From NCBI RefSeq assembly GCF_021310995.1, contig NZ_CP054150.1:1302001-1366000 (forward strand): 64,000 nt of DNA, given 5' to 3'. Source of the DNA: Agrobacterium vaccinii (lineage in GTDB: Bacteria; Pseudomonadota; Alphaproteobacteria; Rhizobiales; Rhizobiaceae). Below the pieces are notes generated by a model, which saw only the letters and a program-made list of their open reading frames with translations, had not been told where the DNA came from and made no database searches. Of the stretch, positions 29,110 through 33,808 are shown piece by piece; within the stretch, counting starts at the first letter, position 1, and every line of letters begins with the position of its first letter. Position numbers and translations under genes: made by a program.

Positions 29110-30249
<1,140 letters not shown>

Positions 30250-30264
30250 CTGCCAAGACAGTCG

Positions 30265-30461
30265 CTCTGTCCTGCCGGACATCTCCCCCTCAAGGGGGGA
30301 GATCGGCAAGAGGCACGATCACCGCTCCAATTGCAGCCGCCTGAGATTTGGCGCTGGCAATACACGTAGCTGCCCTATGCAACGCTCAAGATGACCGGCA
30401 AGCCCGCGCCCAGCCGATCTCCCCACCTGAGGGGGAGATGCCCGGCAGGGCAGAGGGGGGT
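30265..30461. repeat. RIME-like long palindrome downstream of the IS110 transposase
   Basis: Arms CTCTGTCCTGCCGGACATCT and AGATGCCCGGCAGGGCAGAG pair with a few mismatches, and the adjoining CCCCCTC...GGGGAGATCGGC / GCCGATCTCCCC extend them. The family is the same as at 16846-17034. The spacer of about 110 bp has no ORF of note. Confidence 0.75.
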
Positions 30462-30608
30462 AAACCCCACCCTCCGACCTCACGATACACTCCCCAAAAC
30501 ATCAAAGACAAAAATACTTCCCAGCCGAATCAACAGCTTAAAAGAAATCCAACAAAAAACACCAAAATTCCCCCCGCAACTTTCTCAATGACGCGCGAAT
30601 CACCCGCA

Positions 30609-31431
30609 CAATCTCCCCGTTCCGCCCTCGGATACACCGCAAGGCGTTGCGGCGAGGCGGGACCGGCGCTGGTGGCAAGGAGGTTACGCATCCTCTTTGT
30701 CATCGGGGTCGAGCAGCGATCTCCCCGGTGGGACGGGAGAAAGGTGGCGGCGGTTTCGGACCGGCTGTCGCAGCCTTTCCAATGTCCGGACCGGCCTGGC
30801 ATGTCTGCGCCCCAAAACACCGTTTCGGGTTTTGTGGCGGGTCATGGCGGTCCGGTTTGCCAGCCACCGGGCGTACCGACAGCTCATCGGCACCGGGTCG
30901 AACGCGACCGCAGGGGCTTGAAGCGAAAGTCAGGCGGTACACAGGAACACGCTGCATCTGCCCCGCACTGTTGCGAAACAGCGCGGACGGACCGCAAGGT
31001 TACCATCGGCGAATGTGCCCAGTGGCCACCTTGCGGAGAACGGATCGATGGCTGCGGGCGCTTCGTCAGAATGAAGCCTCCCATCCTCGAAGGCAGATGT
31101 GGCCGAACTGGCAGGCGACAGCTTCGGCAACGAAGCCGCCGTCACCCGGGTGGGTAAGGCCGGACCTTGATTTGTCCGACCGTTCCAACGGCGAGGACCC
31201 CTTGCCCTCCGGGATATGCCAGCCATGGCAAGAGGATCGCTGTTCGGCCAAAAGAGCCGAACGGGGCGCTGCGAGGTGCCATTTTATAGACTACCCAACG
31301 AGGCAACTTACAGCGCCCCGTCCGAAATACCCATGGCCGCGAATGGTTATGGACACTGAGAGAAGGTCAAGCCACGGGCAGGTGCTGCCGCGTGAACGGC
31401 GAAGCTTGCGTGAGGGGTGGCCAGGGTTTTT
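30609..31431 (+). ncRNA. Candidate large structured RNA, 0.7-0.8 kb, family unknown
   Basis: This tract has no credible protein gene but a dense series of hairpins: 30622-30630/30653-30660 with inner 30637-30642/30647-30652; 30674-30683/30692-30701; 30740-30778; 30786-30793/30848-30855 with inner 30809-30818/30829-30838; 30873-30878/30935-30940; 30896-30900/30905-30909; 30963-30986 capped by CTGTT-GCGA-AACAG; 30992-31000/31028-31036 (9 bp); 31060-31064/31073-31077; 31121-31136, GCTTCG-GCAA-CGAAGC; 31161-31165/31174-31178; 31201-31206/31227-31232; 31242-31248/31256-31262; 31262-31271/31311-31320 (10 bp); 31373-31394. GNRA loops and G.U pairs (for example GGCAAGGAGG with CCTCTTTGTC) fit an RNA read from the plus strand. 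TTTTT at 31427-31431 could be its end. The limits are approximate. It is not RNase P RNA, tmRNA or SRP RNA by their conserved sequences. Confidence 0.6.
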
Positions 31432-31465
31432 GATAGCGATGGGATTTGGAGGGTGTGGCTGGGTG

Positions 31466-31668
31466 CAACGCAGCAACCCTCACCATTGTGAGATTGCCAA
31501 AGAAGTTGCCACGCAAAGGGCACAACAGAGCAACCCTCATCCTGAGGTGCCCCACAGGGGCCTCGAAGGACGAGGGTTGCGGGCTTGGGGCAGAGTGCGC
31601 GGCGGATGCTTCGAGGCCTTGCCCTTCGGCCAAAGCACCTCAGCATGAGGGCGGAGGGTGAGGTTGCC
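31466..31668. repeat. Mosaic intergenic repeat, copy 1
   Basis: The unit starts with GCAACGCAGCAACCCTCACC and contains CCTCATCCTGAGGTGCC, CAGGGGCCTCGAAGGACG, GCGGATGCTTCGAGG and a closing CACCTCAGCATGAGG, with inner inverted pairs CCTCA / TGAGG and CCTCGAAG / CTTCGAGG. A second copy follows at 31736-31930. Its translation looks like an ORF in some frames, but it is a well-known type of rhizobial intergenic repeat. Confidence 0.75.
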
Positions 31669-31735
31669 CTCTCCAATACCGGACAAACGCGGAATGCGAG
31701 CAGGTACGAGGAATGCTTGGCGATGATGCAAGCCG

Positions 31736-31930
31736 CAACGCAGCAACCCTCACCACCATGAGAGCCGAAGGAGGTGCCACGCAAAGGGCCGCAACGCAGC
31801 AACCCTCATCCTGAGGTGCCCCGCAGGGGCCTCGAAGGACGGGGGGTGCGGGCTTGGGGCAGGAGTACGCGGCGGATGCTTCGAGGGTCGCTTCGCTCCC
31901 ACCTCAGCATGAGGTTGGTGGGTGAGGTGA
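31736..31930. repeat. Mosaic intergenic repeat, copy 2
   Basis: A direct repeat of the element at 31466-31668 with the same order of blocks (GCAACGCAGCAACCCTCACC, CCTCATCCTGAGGTGCC, GGGGCCTCGAAGGACG, GCGGATGCTTCGAGG, CACCTCAGCATGAGG) and scattered substitutions. The two copies are separated by about 70 bp. Confidence 0.75.
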
Positions 31931-31955
31931 CCGGCTGCACTGAGCAAGGGAGGAG

Positions 31956-31999
31956 GCCGTGGTGCCCCCTAAAATACGCCGTGGTGCCCCCTAAAATAC
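31956..31999. repeat. 22-bp tandem direct repeat (two perfect units)
   Basis: Two identical, adjoining units beginning GCCGTGGTGCCCCCTAAAAT and ending AC, at 31956-31977 and 31978-31999. They lie 60 bp before the FNR box of ccoN. With only two units and no spacer it is not a CRISPR. Confidence 0.85.
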
Positions 32000-32058
32000 A
32001 AAGCTCGATTACGCCGCCCACCCTCCCATCACGTAAACTCCATCCCCAACTCCCCGAC

Positions 32059-32072
32059 TTGATCCAAATCAA
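32059..32072 (+). promoter_or_regulatory. FNR/FixK box of the ccoNOQP operon
   Basis: TTGATCCAAATCAA is a perfect match to TTGAT-N4-ATCAA, 114 bp before the ccoN start. It implies activation by FnrN or FixK at low oxygen. Confidence 0.88.
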
Positions 32073-32185
32073 GGCCACTTGCCCATCTCAGTGGCAAAGC
32101 AGCAGACGACGCGAAAGCACGTTTGCCACTTTCTGCTGGCCCATGCCGCGCGTCGTAACTGCGATGACGTTGGGGGAAACCAACA

Positions 32186-33808
32186 ATGAACTCTGTTTTA
32201 GGAACTGCGATGGTGGCCGTGGGGGCTTTCCTCGCGCTGCTCGGGGCGGCCTTCGCTCACGATGATCTTTTTGCTGCCCATATGTGGATATTGTTTTTCC
32301 TGCTCGTAACCGGCACCGCGCTGATGTTGCGCCGCGCGTCCTTTGCGCCGGTGAAGCCGATCTCGAGAGAGCAGCGCGAATCCGAATATTTCGACGAAGT
32401 CATACGATACGGTGTGATTGCCACGGTGTTCTGGGGCGTCGTCGGGTTTCTGGTGGGCGTCACCATCGCCCTGCAACTGGCCTTTCCGGATTTGAATATC
32501 GAGCCATGGTTCAACTTCGGTCGTGTTCGCCCACTGCACACATCCGCAGTCATTTTCGCCTTTGGCGGCAATGCGCTGATAGCGACGTCTTTCTATGTCG
32601 TTCAGCGGACATCGCGCGCGCGGCTGTTCGGCGGTGATCTCGGCTGGTTCGTGTTCTGGGGCTACAATCTGTTCATCGTCATGGCCGCCACCGGGTATCT
32701 GCTGGGCATCACCCAGAGCAAGGAATATGCGGAGCCGGAATGGTATGTCGATATCTGGCTCACCATCGTCTGGGTCGCCTATCTCGTCACCTTCCTTGGC
32801 ACGATCCTGAAGCGCAAGGAGCCGCACATCTACGTGGCGAACTGGTTCTACCTCGGCTTCATCGTCACCATTGCCATGCTGCATGTGGTCAACAATCTGG
32901 CCGTGCCCGTCTCGTTTCTCGGCGTGAAAAGCTACTCGGCCTTCTCCGGCGTGCAGGATGCGCTGACGCAGTGGTGGTATGGCCACAACGCCGTCGGCTT
33001 CTTCCTGACGGCTGGCTTCCTGGGCATGATGTACTACTTCATCCCCAAGCAGGTGAACCGCCCTGTTTATTCCTACCGGCTGTCGATCATCCACTTCTGG
33101 GCGCTGATCTTCATGTATATCTGGGCAGGTCCTCACCACCTGCATTACACCGCGCTGCCCGACTGGGCGCAGACGCTGGGCATGGTATTTTCCATCATGC
33201 TGTGGATGCCGTCGTGGGGTGGCATGATCAATGGCCTTATGACGCTGTCGGGCGCCTGGGACAAGATCCGTACCGATCCGATCGTGCGCATGATGGTCAT
33301 GGCGGTTGCCTTCTATGGCATGGCGACCTTCGAGGGGCCGATGATGTCCATCAAGGCCGTCAATTCGCTCAGCCACTATACCGACTGGACCATCGGTCAC
33401 GTGCATTCCGGCGCTCTCGGCTGGAACGGCATGATCACCTTCGGTGCGATCTATTACCTGACGCCGAAGCTCTGGGGACGTGAGCGACTCTATAGCTTGC
33501 GCATGGTCAACTGGCACTTCTGGCTCGCCACGCTCGGTATCGTCGTCTACGCCGCCGTCATGTGGGTGGCAGGTATCCAGCAGGGTCTGATGTGGCGCGA
33601 ATATGATGCGCAGGGCTTCCTGGTCTACTCGTTTGCCGAAACGGTCGCCGCACTCTTCCCATACTACGTGCTGCGTGCGCTGGGCGGGGCGCTGTTCCTC
33701 GGGGGCGCGCTGATCATGGCCTACAACGTCACCATGACAATTCTCGGCTACCAGCGCGACGAGGCGGGCTTCAAGAGCGCTACGCCTAAGCTGCAGCCAG
33801 CGGAATAA
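32186..33808 (+). CDS. ccoN: cbb3-type cytochrome c oxidase subunit I CcoN
   Basis: A 540-residue catalytic subunit of the high-affinity terminal oxidase used under microaerobic conditions, with about 12-14 membrane helices binding haem b and the b3-CuB centre. Histidine ligands are seen in [40 protein letters not shown] and [13 protein letters not shown]. The first 60 residues add one helix plus a short arginine-rich link ([13 protein letters not shown]), common in rhizobial FixN. It is the first gene of ccoNOQP, 12 bp before ccoO, with an FNR box upstream. Confidence 0.96.

Follow-up and report, generated by a model that had tools for sequence, protein, structure and literature searches.

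The window analysed here is a 64-kb stretch of the Agrobacterium vaccinii genome. It contains a structured RNA element of about 815 nt at positions 30616 to 31431 of the plus strand, between two ORFs whose labels we assigned by eye from their sequence: an IS110-type transposase ORF that ends at 30249, and a ccoN-like oxidase subunit ORF that starts at 32186. The presumed 5′ end of the element is set by a −10-like box, and the start may fall a few nucleotides inside hairpin P1. The presumed 3′ end is set by a T tract. The limits of the original prediction, 30609 to 31431, closely fit the conserved element. The parts of the locus are as follows.

30540 to 30612, plus strand: upstream region, A/T-rich, with TTTCTC (30581-30586) and a −10-like CACAAT (30607-30612), conserved among Agrobacterium copies
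30616 to 31431, plus strand: structured RNA element, with three more copies in the same genome that are 91-94% identical (28-copy alignment)
30617 to 30666, plus strand: P1, the 5′ hairpin, with near-invariant GGATACACCG and a GCGT loop (56-sequence alignment A1)
30670 to 30706, plus strand: P3 hairpin with loop TACGCA (A1 helices 3 and 4; loop table)
30707 to 30721, plus strand: 5′ strand of the long-range core helix P4/P5, 15 bp, partner 31235-31249
30722 to 31234, plus strand: variable interior, expanded in Agrobacterium, holding the other stems of the original prediction (span comparison, 126 hits)
30873 to 30940, plus strand: helix GTACCG / CGGTAC-ACAGG (by-eye comparison with the compact form)
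31235 to 31249, plus strand: 3′ strand of the long-range core helix P4/P5, partner 30707-30721
31256 to 31324, plus strand: short closing helix GCCG (with 30664-30667) and P6, the 3′ hairpin GGGGCGCTG..CAGCGCCCC (alignment A2)
31366 to 31431, plus strand: 3′ tail, CACGGGC..GCCGCGTG and terminal GGCC..TTTTT (31427-31431), conserved in Agrobacterium copies

The IS110-type ORF (29179-30249) lies about 360 bp upstream of the RNA. The 3′ end of this IS110 was found twice in another locus of the same genome (L034; 85% and 99%), which makes it a repeated element in A. vaccinii. Among 20 loci carrying the RNA (three from the same genome and 17 from other genomes), the IS110 end is present at one, an own-genome locus where it lies about 1 kb and 8 kb from the RNA copy. 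Because the IS110 end occurs at just one of the 20 loci, its position next to the window RNA is incidental. The RNA has a set of intergenic palindromic repeats on either side (30265-30461 and 31470-31930), and these are found again around many of the same 20 loci. Further downstream, CGTGGTGCCCCCTAAAATAC forms a direct repeat of two copies with 2 bp spacing (31958-31999). The sequence TTGATCCAAATCAA (32059-32072), about 110 bp ahead of the ccoN-like ORF, is one that we take from its motif to be a FixK/FNR-type box. A tRNA/tmRNA scan of the 64-kb window found none.

The boxes upstream of P1 have a family consensus of TTTTCCCCGC for TTTCTC and TAYAAT for CACAAT. Close to P1, 112 of the 120 sequences compared have a −10-like hexamer, whose A and T are fixed by the search pattern. 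Upstream of the hexamer by about 20 nt is a C-rich box that the search did not fix; its best position has C in 106 of 112 sequences. Because a sigma-70 scan finds no consensus promoter match, we only infer that the conserved box is a promoter. At the other end of the element the T tract is kept in the Agrobacterium copies and would serve as a terminator; a terminator pattern scan at the 3′ end scored none.

Structure, strand and coding potential

The element folds more stably than expected from its composition. The plus strand has a folding energy of −420.2 kcal/mol, and 20 dinucleotide shuffles average −360.3 (sd 10.65), which gives z −5.62; for the minus strand, a near mirror image, z is −3.97. 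Sets of 28 of the 32 Agrobacterium copies were used for structure and tree analysis, omitting the double copies of genome G033 (L045 and L046) and two incomplete copies (L044 and L058). RNAalifold runs used 27 copies, omitting L061, which contains N. The resulting structure has 244 pairs, with 6006 of 6387 cells paired (94.0%). Homologues with compensatory changes are present, with two-sided changes in 61 of the 244 pairs compared with 17-24 in five column-shuffled alignments. Read on the minus strand, the same structure pairs in 85.1% of cells because G.U turns into A.C, and the plus strand is favoured, as had been predicted. The minus strand refolded freely is also structured (225 pairs, 91.3% of cells paired, 49 two-sided pairs).

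With all remaining column pairs as background, 13 of the 244 structure pairs in the Agrobacterium alignment lie above the 99.9th percentile, where 0.24 would be expected. The corresponding cross-genus figures are six of 31 pairs for the 5′ alignment (A1) and one of 13 for the 3′ alignment (A2), with five of the 13 above the 99th percentile. Most of the top 100 covarying column pairs lie outside the structure, which accounts for eight in Agrobacterium, nine in A1 and five in A2; we put the others down to shared ancestry and alignment noise. Two-sided cells in A1 number 184 against 79.6 in shuffled alignments. Structures slid along the alignments pair in 41-56% of cells, compared with 92.3% (A1) and 93.5% (A2) in place.

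Compensatory changes are found in most stems of the original prediction and in the long-range helices, which bears out its claim that structure is under selection. Five of its features were compared with the sequence, and all five lie where the prediction places them. The 10-bp stem (CGGGGCGCTG at 31262-31271 with CAGCGCCCCG at 31311-31320) is present; it pairs in 275 of 278 cells in the 28 copies and is invariant within the genus (0 of 10 pairs two-sided), while between genera it varies and compensates. The 9-bp stem (CCGCAAGGT at 30992-31000 with ACCTTGCGG at 31028-31036) pairs in 179 of 197 cells, with two-sided changes in four of nine pairs. The helix with G.U pairs at 30674-30683/30692-30701 pairs in 245 of 269 cells (eight of 10 pairs two-sided). 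Both GNRA loops, GCGA at 30973-30976 and GCAA at 31127-31130, are also present. The stem of the first pairs in 218 of 254 cells (seven of 10 two-sided), and that of the second, extended to 14 bp, in 249 of 352 cells (seven of 14 two-sided) with a mostly unpaired base.

The terminal hairpins are supported across genera. P1 pairs in 97.2% (outer) and 95.5% (inner) of cells in A1, with two-sided changes in seven of 18 pairs, and P3 in 80.7% and 83.9% of cells, with two-sided changes in all eight counted pairs. The P6 region pairs in 93.5% of cells in A2, with 11 of 13 pairs two-sided; two-sided cells total 70, and shuffled alignments average 19. The P1 loop GCGT and the P3 loop TACGCA form a candidate loop-loop contact with too few consistent changes to claim it: GCGU in P1 and ACGC in P3 are nearly invariant, and one group of five sequences shows the consistent change to ACGU with ACGU. 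The window core helix (30707-30721/31235-31249) pairs in 378 of 420 cells in the 28 copies, with three of 15 pairs two-sided. Over 56 sequences, the long-range helices pair in 89% of cells with 69 two-sided cells, in a structure taken from the same alignment as was counted. When 5′ and 3′ halves were re-paired between sequences 500 times, long-range pairing averaged 82.9% (maximum 84.7%) and two-sided cells numbered at most 29.

Long open frames occur in single copies, of 304 codons in the window copy and 300 in L050. These frames differ among the 10 copies compared, and 449 of 470 indels relative to the window row, counted per row with shared ones repeated, are not multiples of three. The copies share no conserved reading frame, in agreement with the original view that the segment holds no credible gene, and we rejected a protein gene on these grounds. 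That the element is decayed coding sequence or a chance GC-rich fold is scarcely credible. GC-rich DNA does fold well, and a 333-codon ORF runs across the window copy. The frameshifting indels and unshared frames argue against decayed coding sequence, and the excess of two-sided pairs over the shuffled alignments against a chance fold.

Copies, taxonomic range and size forms

DNA search finds four copies in the A. vaccinii genome. The window copy is at 1332500 (plus), and the other three, all near full length, are at 2920364 (minus; 94% identical to it), 296816 (plus; 91%) and 1239433 (minus; 91%). A DNA match is present in 16 of 101 genomes (A. vaccinii and relatives); 13 of the 16 belong to the genus, and the match in one of these 13 is very weak. 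Copy number in relatives runs from one to at least 11. To extend the range we used two covariance models, R1 for the 5′ part of the element and R2 for the 3′ hairpin. R1 matches 11 of 39 genomes of the genus Agrobacterium, and 42 of 297 genomes drawn from the Rhizobiaceae in the wide sense, representing 17 of 109 genera, with at least 194 matches in all and from one to at least 12 per positive genome. In an order-level draw R1 matches three of 297 genomes, all three of them Rhizobiaceae, and in a class-level draw of 289 genomes it matches the A. vaccinii genome only. Searches outside the family used R1 alone with stricter filters, so weak distant relatives may exist there.

R2 reaches forms whose 5′ hairpin sequence differs. 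It matches 63 of the 297 family genomes (30 of 109 genera), including all 42 that are positive for R1. R2 also weakly matches the reverse strand of P6, so that its counts per genome can be too high. Of its six matches in the A. vaccinii genome, four are the copies already described, one is the reverse strand of a P6, and one is a partial match on contig 2 (L298:779-833; 41.6 bits), about 0.3 kb from the contig end. In genome G110, R2 finds 11 matches with E≤1.2e-5, rising to 15 with E≤0.001. Contig 1 of this genome carries very many copies of a distant form whose P1 is different (GATCATGACGG), and the strong matches in the first 2.4 Mb are mostly on the plus strand. R1 recognises distant forms weakly or not at all (L272, 35.7 bits; L264, 17.6 bits; L269, no match), and their proposed homology is based on overall layout together with the upstream box and the 3′ hairpin.

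A pattern scan of named genomes found at least 119 stretches, and 118 of the 119 carry rhizobial names: Agrobacterium rubi, A. rosae, A. bohemicum, Rhizobium, Neorhizobium, Shinella, Ciceribacter, Xaviernesmea, Pararhizobium, Aliirhizobium and unnamed Rhizobiales. Neorhizobium galegae, Shinella granuli and Rhizobium giardinii are among the species named. The exception is a Roseovarius MAG in which 52 nt of the element stand at the end of a 3.9-kb contig, perhaps a contaminant. By covariance search, then, the RNA family appears confined to the Rhizobiaceae in the wide sense. It is patchy within them, and the patchy range (11 of 39 congeners; 42 or 63 of 297 genomes in the family) shows that lineages can dispense with the RNA.

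Some copies are on plasmids, and several are at contig ends. An isolated fragment of the central domain, 77% identical, lies beside SIR2 and AAA ATPase genes on Agrobacterium fabrum plasmid pAtN33_94 (L078:3001-3118) and is probably a decayed copy. A 43-nt DNA match on a Phyllobacterium plasmid was not accepted as a member, as its 3-kb surroundings hold no R1 or R2 match. From the neighbouring IS110 it had been suggested that the RNA could be mobile or phage-derived. This suggestion is not supported: in addition to the single IS110 end among 20 loci, the Agrobacterium form has no DNA match in 50,697 phage records. One IMG/VR contig carries the 5′ part. In that contig (L204:479-593) the 5′ segment is full, with an R1 score of 93.4 bits, and the 1044 bases contain no 3′ hairpin.

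The forms of the element have in common P1 with its near-invariant GGATACACCG, P3, the long-range helices and P6. A 3′ hairpin accompanies 126 of 168 P1 hits in the loci compared, some of which cover the same place twice; of the 42 hits without one, many are cut off by the end of the locus. Measured from P1 to the 3′ hairpin, compact forms span 260-337 nt, middle forms 345-516 nt and Agrobacterium forms 596-720 nt. Spans of 792-880 nt occur in a single draft genome with duplications (G033), whose double copies, joined by N or abrupt repeats, look like draft-assembly artefacts. We propose that the helix at 30873-30940 corresponds to the GTGCC..GGCACACA hairpin of compact forms, enlarged by a loop insertion.

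Genomic sites and concerted evolution

Several sites recur in two to five Agrobacterium species, and not every species has every site. The intergenic sites are old, and among 127 further loci some are common to different genera. The side and strand of the neighbouring gene relative to the element are constant for uvrB (identified by Pfam) at 13 of 13 loci, one of them (L107) with a uvrB match spanning 54 residues only. They are likewise constant for genes that we assigned as clpB (7 of 7), cysK (6 of 6) and ftsY (7 of 7); these counts include three places counted twice (L104, L110 and L125). Elements at these four kinds of site range from 295 to 712 nt across genera. At the clpB site, Agrobacterium forms are 609-705 nt and that of Rhizobium halophytocola is 369 nt. 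Orientation is not conserved at the window site, where hom is upstream on the same strand here, and downstream on the opposite strand in L040 and L071. No neighbour gene is common to all or most copies in either the Agrobacterium loci or the 127 further loci, and uvrB, the commonest, is near only a minority of them.

In a maximum-likelihood tree of the 28 Agrobacterium copies, genome labels require 12 changes compared with a shuffled mean of 20.6, and none of 200 shuffles was as low. Site labels, which we assigned from neighbours and of which 'hom' joins two copies of different orientation, require 21 changes compared with 21.5, and 99 of 200 shuffles were as low. Because the sequences group by genome and not by site, the Agrobacterium copies are homogenised within each genome, as rRNA operons are. 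Ectopic gene conversion is the simplest cause of this uniformity.

The main rival to an RNA gene is a non-autonomous mobile element in which the structured RNA or the hairpin ends serve the element's own movement, with the hairpins as recognition ends and the interior as cargo; HEARO/IscB and IS200-type ends are analogues. Its appeal is that the element is multi-copy, patchy and intergenic at sites not all common to all species, occurs on plasmids and once on a viral contig, and has conserved ends around a variable interior. The reading is weakened by the sites common to different genera, where the same neighbour keeps the same side and strand. It also fits poorly with Agrobacterium sequences that follow genome instead of site, and with compensatory changes that extend into the interior and across the long-range helix. 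Overall we consider it unlikely. As to a nuclease partner, the compact RNA has a small GIY-YIG ORF (94 aa in L083) nearby in L081-L084, which are two Rhizobium and two Shinella plasmid records. It is near only these four searched loci, at two sites in all, which speaks against a mobile element and led us to reject a GIY-YIG-associated one.

Gene order around one site differs between species. clpB is near DUF4167 in 16 of 30 loci (L218-L247), of which 15 are from congeners with no R1 match and one (G030) has the element; the gap in the 15 congeners is roughly 0.35-0.4 kb. In relatives of the clade with no element at the DUF4167-clpB site, clpB is not within reach, and no clean empty junction was found there. 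The order is kept in congeners outside the clade that have no RNA, and is not found in clade members lacking it there, as if copies promoted rearrangement. This variation and the copies at contig ends would suit a DNA-level element, such as a recombination or chromosome-organisation site in which the hairpins are fortuitous. Such a function does not predict that the plus-strand structure pairs better on its own strand (94.0% against 85.1%), and the fixed orientation of the promoter-like box also argues against it. We regard a DNA-level element as very improbable.

Relation to known RNAs and proposed role

At gathering score, Rfam yields no family for the window or for nine related loci. GOLLD, ROOL, OLE and HEARO, all of them Rfam families, give no match at E≤5 across window positions 30250-32190, and none at E≤0.5 in six compact- or middle-form loci and six distant-form loci. 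Since there is no Rfam match, the element is not filed under any of the four. Sub-threshold matches to miRNA models, HOTAIR_3, BLV_package, SorX, WsnRNA46, cold-seep-1 and BcKCsr2 looked unrelated and were discarded, as was one to DUF3800-IV downstream of a distant copy. With no model matching at gathering score or plausibly below, the RNA is of no known family by the Rfam check, as had been suggested. No description of it was recognised in open-licence full texts.

Covariation-supported structure over hundreds of nucleotides with no ORF would place the element among large ornate bacterial non-coding RNAs. It resembles GOLLD, ROOL and OLE in kind, and appears to be a member of none of them. 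It is near 0.8 kb with many helices and no known function, like GOLLD; large and ornate without a known partner, like ROOL; and hundreds of nucleotides long with conserved nucleotides and helices, like OLE. Phages and prophages are the described setting of both GOLLD, which often lies close to tRNA islands, and ROOL (PMC12286853), whereas the rhizobial family occupies ordinary intergenic sites with ordinary chromosomal genes as neighbours, has sizes from 260 nt, and ranges over one alphaproteobacterial family; the 64-kb window has no tRNA. OLE, according to published abstracts, occurs in Gram-positive species, while 118 of the 119 record titles listed for the rhizobial RNA are rhizobial. HEARO differs in that the rhizobial RNA has no constant nuclease ORF as neighbour, judged by neighbour comparison. 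In sum, what separates the rhizobial RNA from all four is its multiple, homogenised copies, its elastic size and its restriction to a single bacterial family. GOLLD, ROOL and OLE form RNA-only homo-oligomers (dimers or nanocages). The IS110 bridge RNA invites comparison through the IS110-type element upstream of the window copy; bridge RNA is about 0.2 kb, and the rhizobial RNA is far longer and does not lie inside an IS110 end.

SmelA075 and SmelA099 are described as multi-copy rhizobial sRNA families with varying numbers of hairpin modules (PMC3927594). Like the present element they have several copies per genome, rhizobial hosts and modular hairpins; we set them apart by their description as sRNAs of varying module number. 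They lend some plausibility to a base-pairing regulatory RNA, a sponge or multi-target sRNA whose structure merely presents loops. Conservation that sits in long helices and internal loops, a size of 0.3-0.8 kb with a closed core, and the lack of any short repeated exposed motif recognised by eye make this reading improbable.

We conclude that the window segment is probably the gene for a large, independently transcribed, trans-acting non-coding RNA of a new family. The original call of a large structured plus-strand RNA of unknown family is sustained by covariation, strand preference, the lack of a conserved ORF and the lack of an Rfam match. Transcription would start beside P1 from the conserved TTTTCCCC/TAYAAT box. 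As no obligatory cis partner was found, a trans-acting role is the best guess, and the RNA might serve as a structural or catalytic scaffold, in a ribonucleoprotein or an RNA-only assembly, and not as a cis-regulator. A structural RNA may be needed in quantity, in which case copy number and gene conversion would keep dosage high and sequence uniform, as for rRNA genes. The interior would be an elastic peripheral domain that has grown in Agrobacterium. More tentatively, the family could represent a new class of family-specific structural or catalytic RNA, encoded by genes that are kept at old dispersed sites and homogenised like rRNA operons, with a universal frame of P1, core helix and P6 around an exchangeable interior.

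If so, a major RNA machine of rhizobia and their relatives would have gone unnoticed so far. Few large ornate bacterial RNAs are known, most of them without function. Here, cultivable hosts, a strong covariation model, size variants, and presence or absence in close relatives make structure and function directly testable. The rRNA genes are otherwise the familiar case of dispersed copies that evolve in concert, which allows the need for dosage or uniformity to be tested here. The size variants show which part of the RNA is indispensable. In G021, a genome of four contigs, a 432-nt form occurs alongside forms of 649-720 nt with the same upstream sequence, box and 3′ tail.
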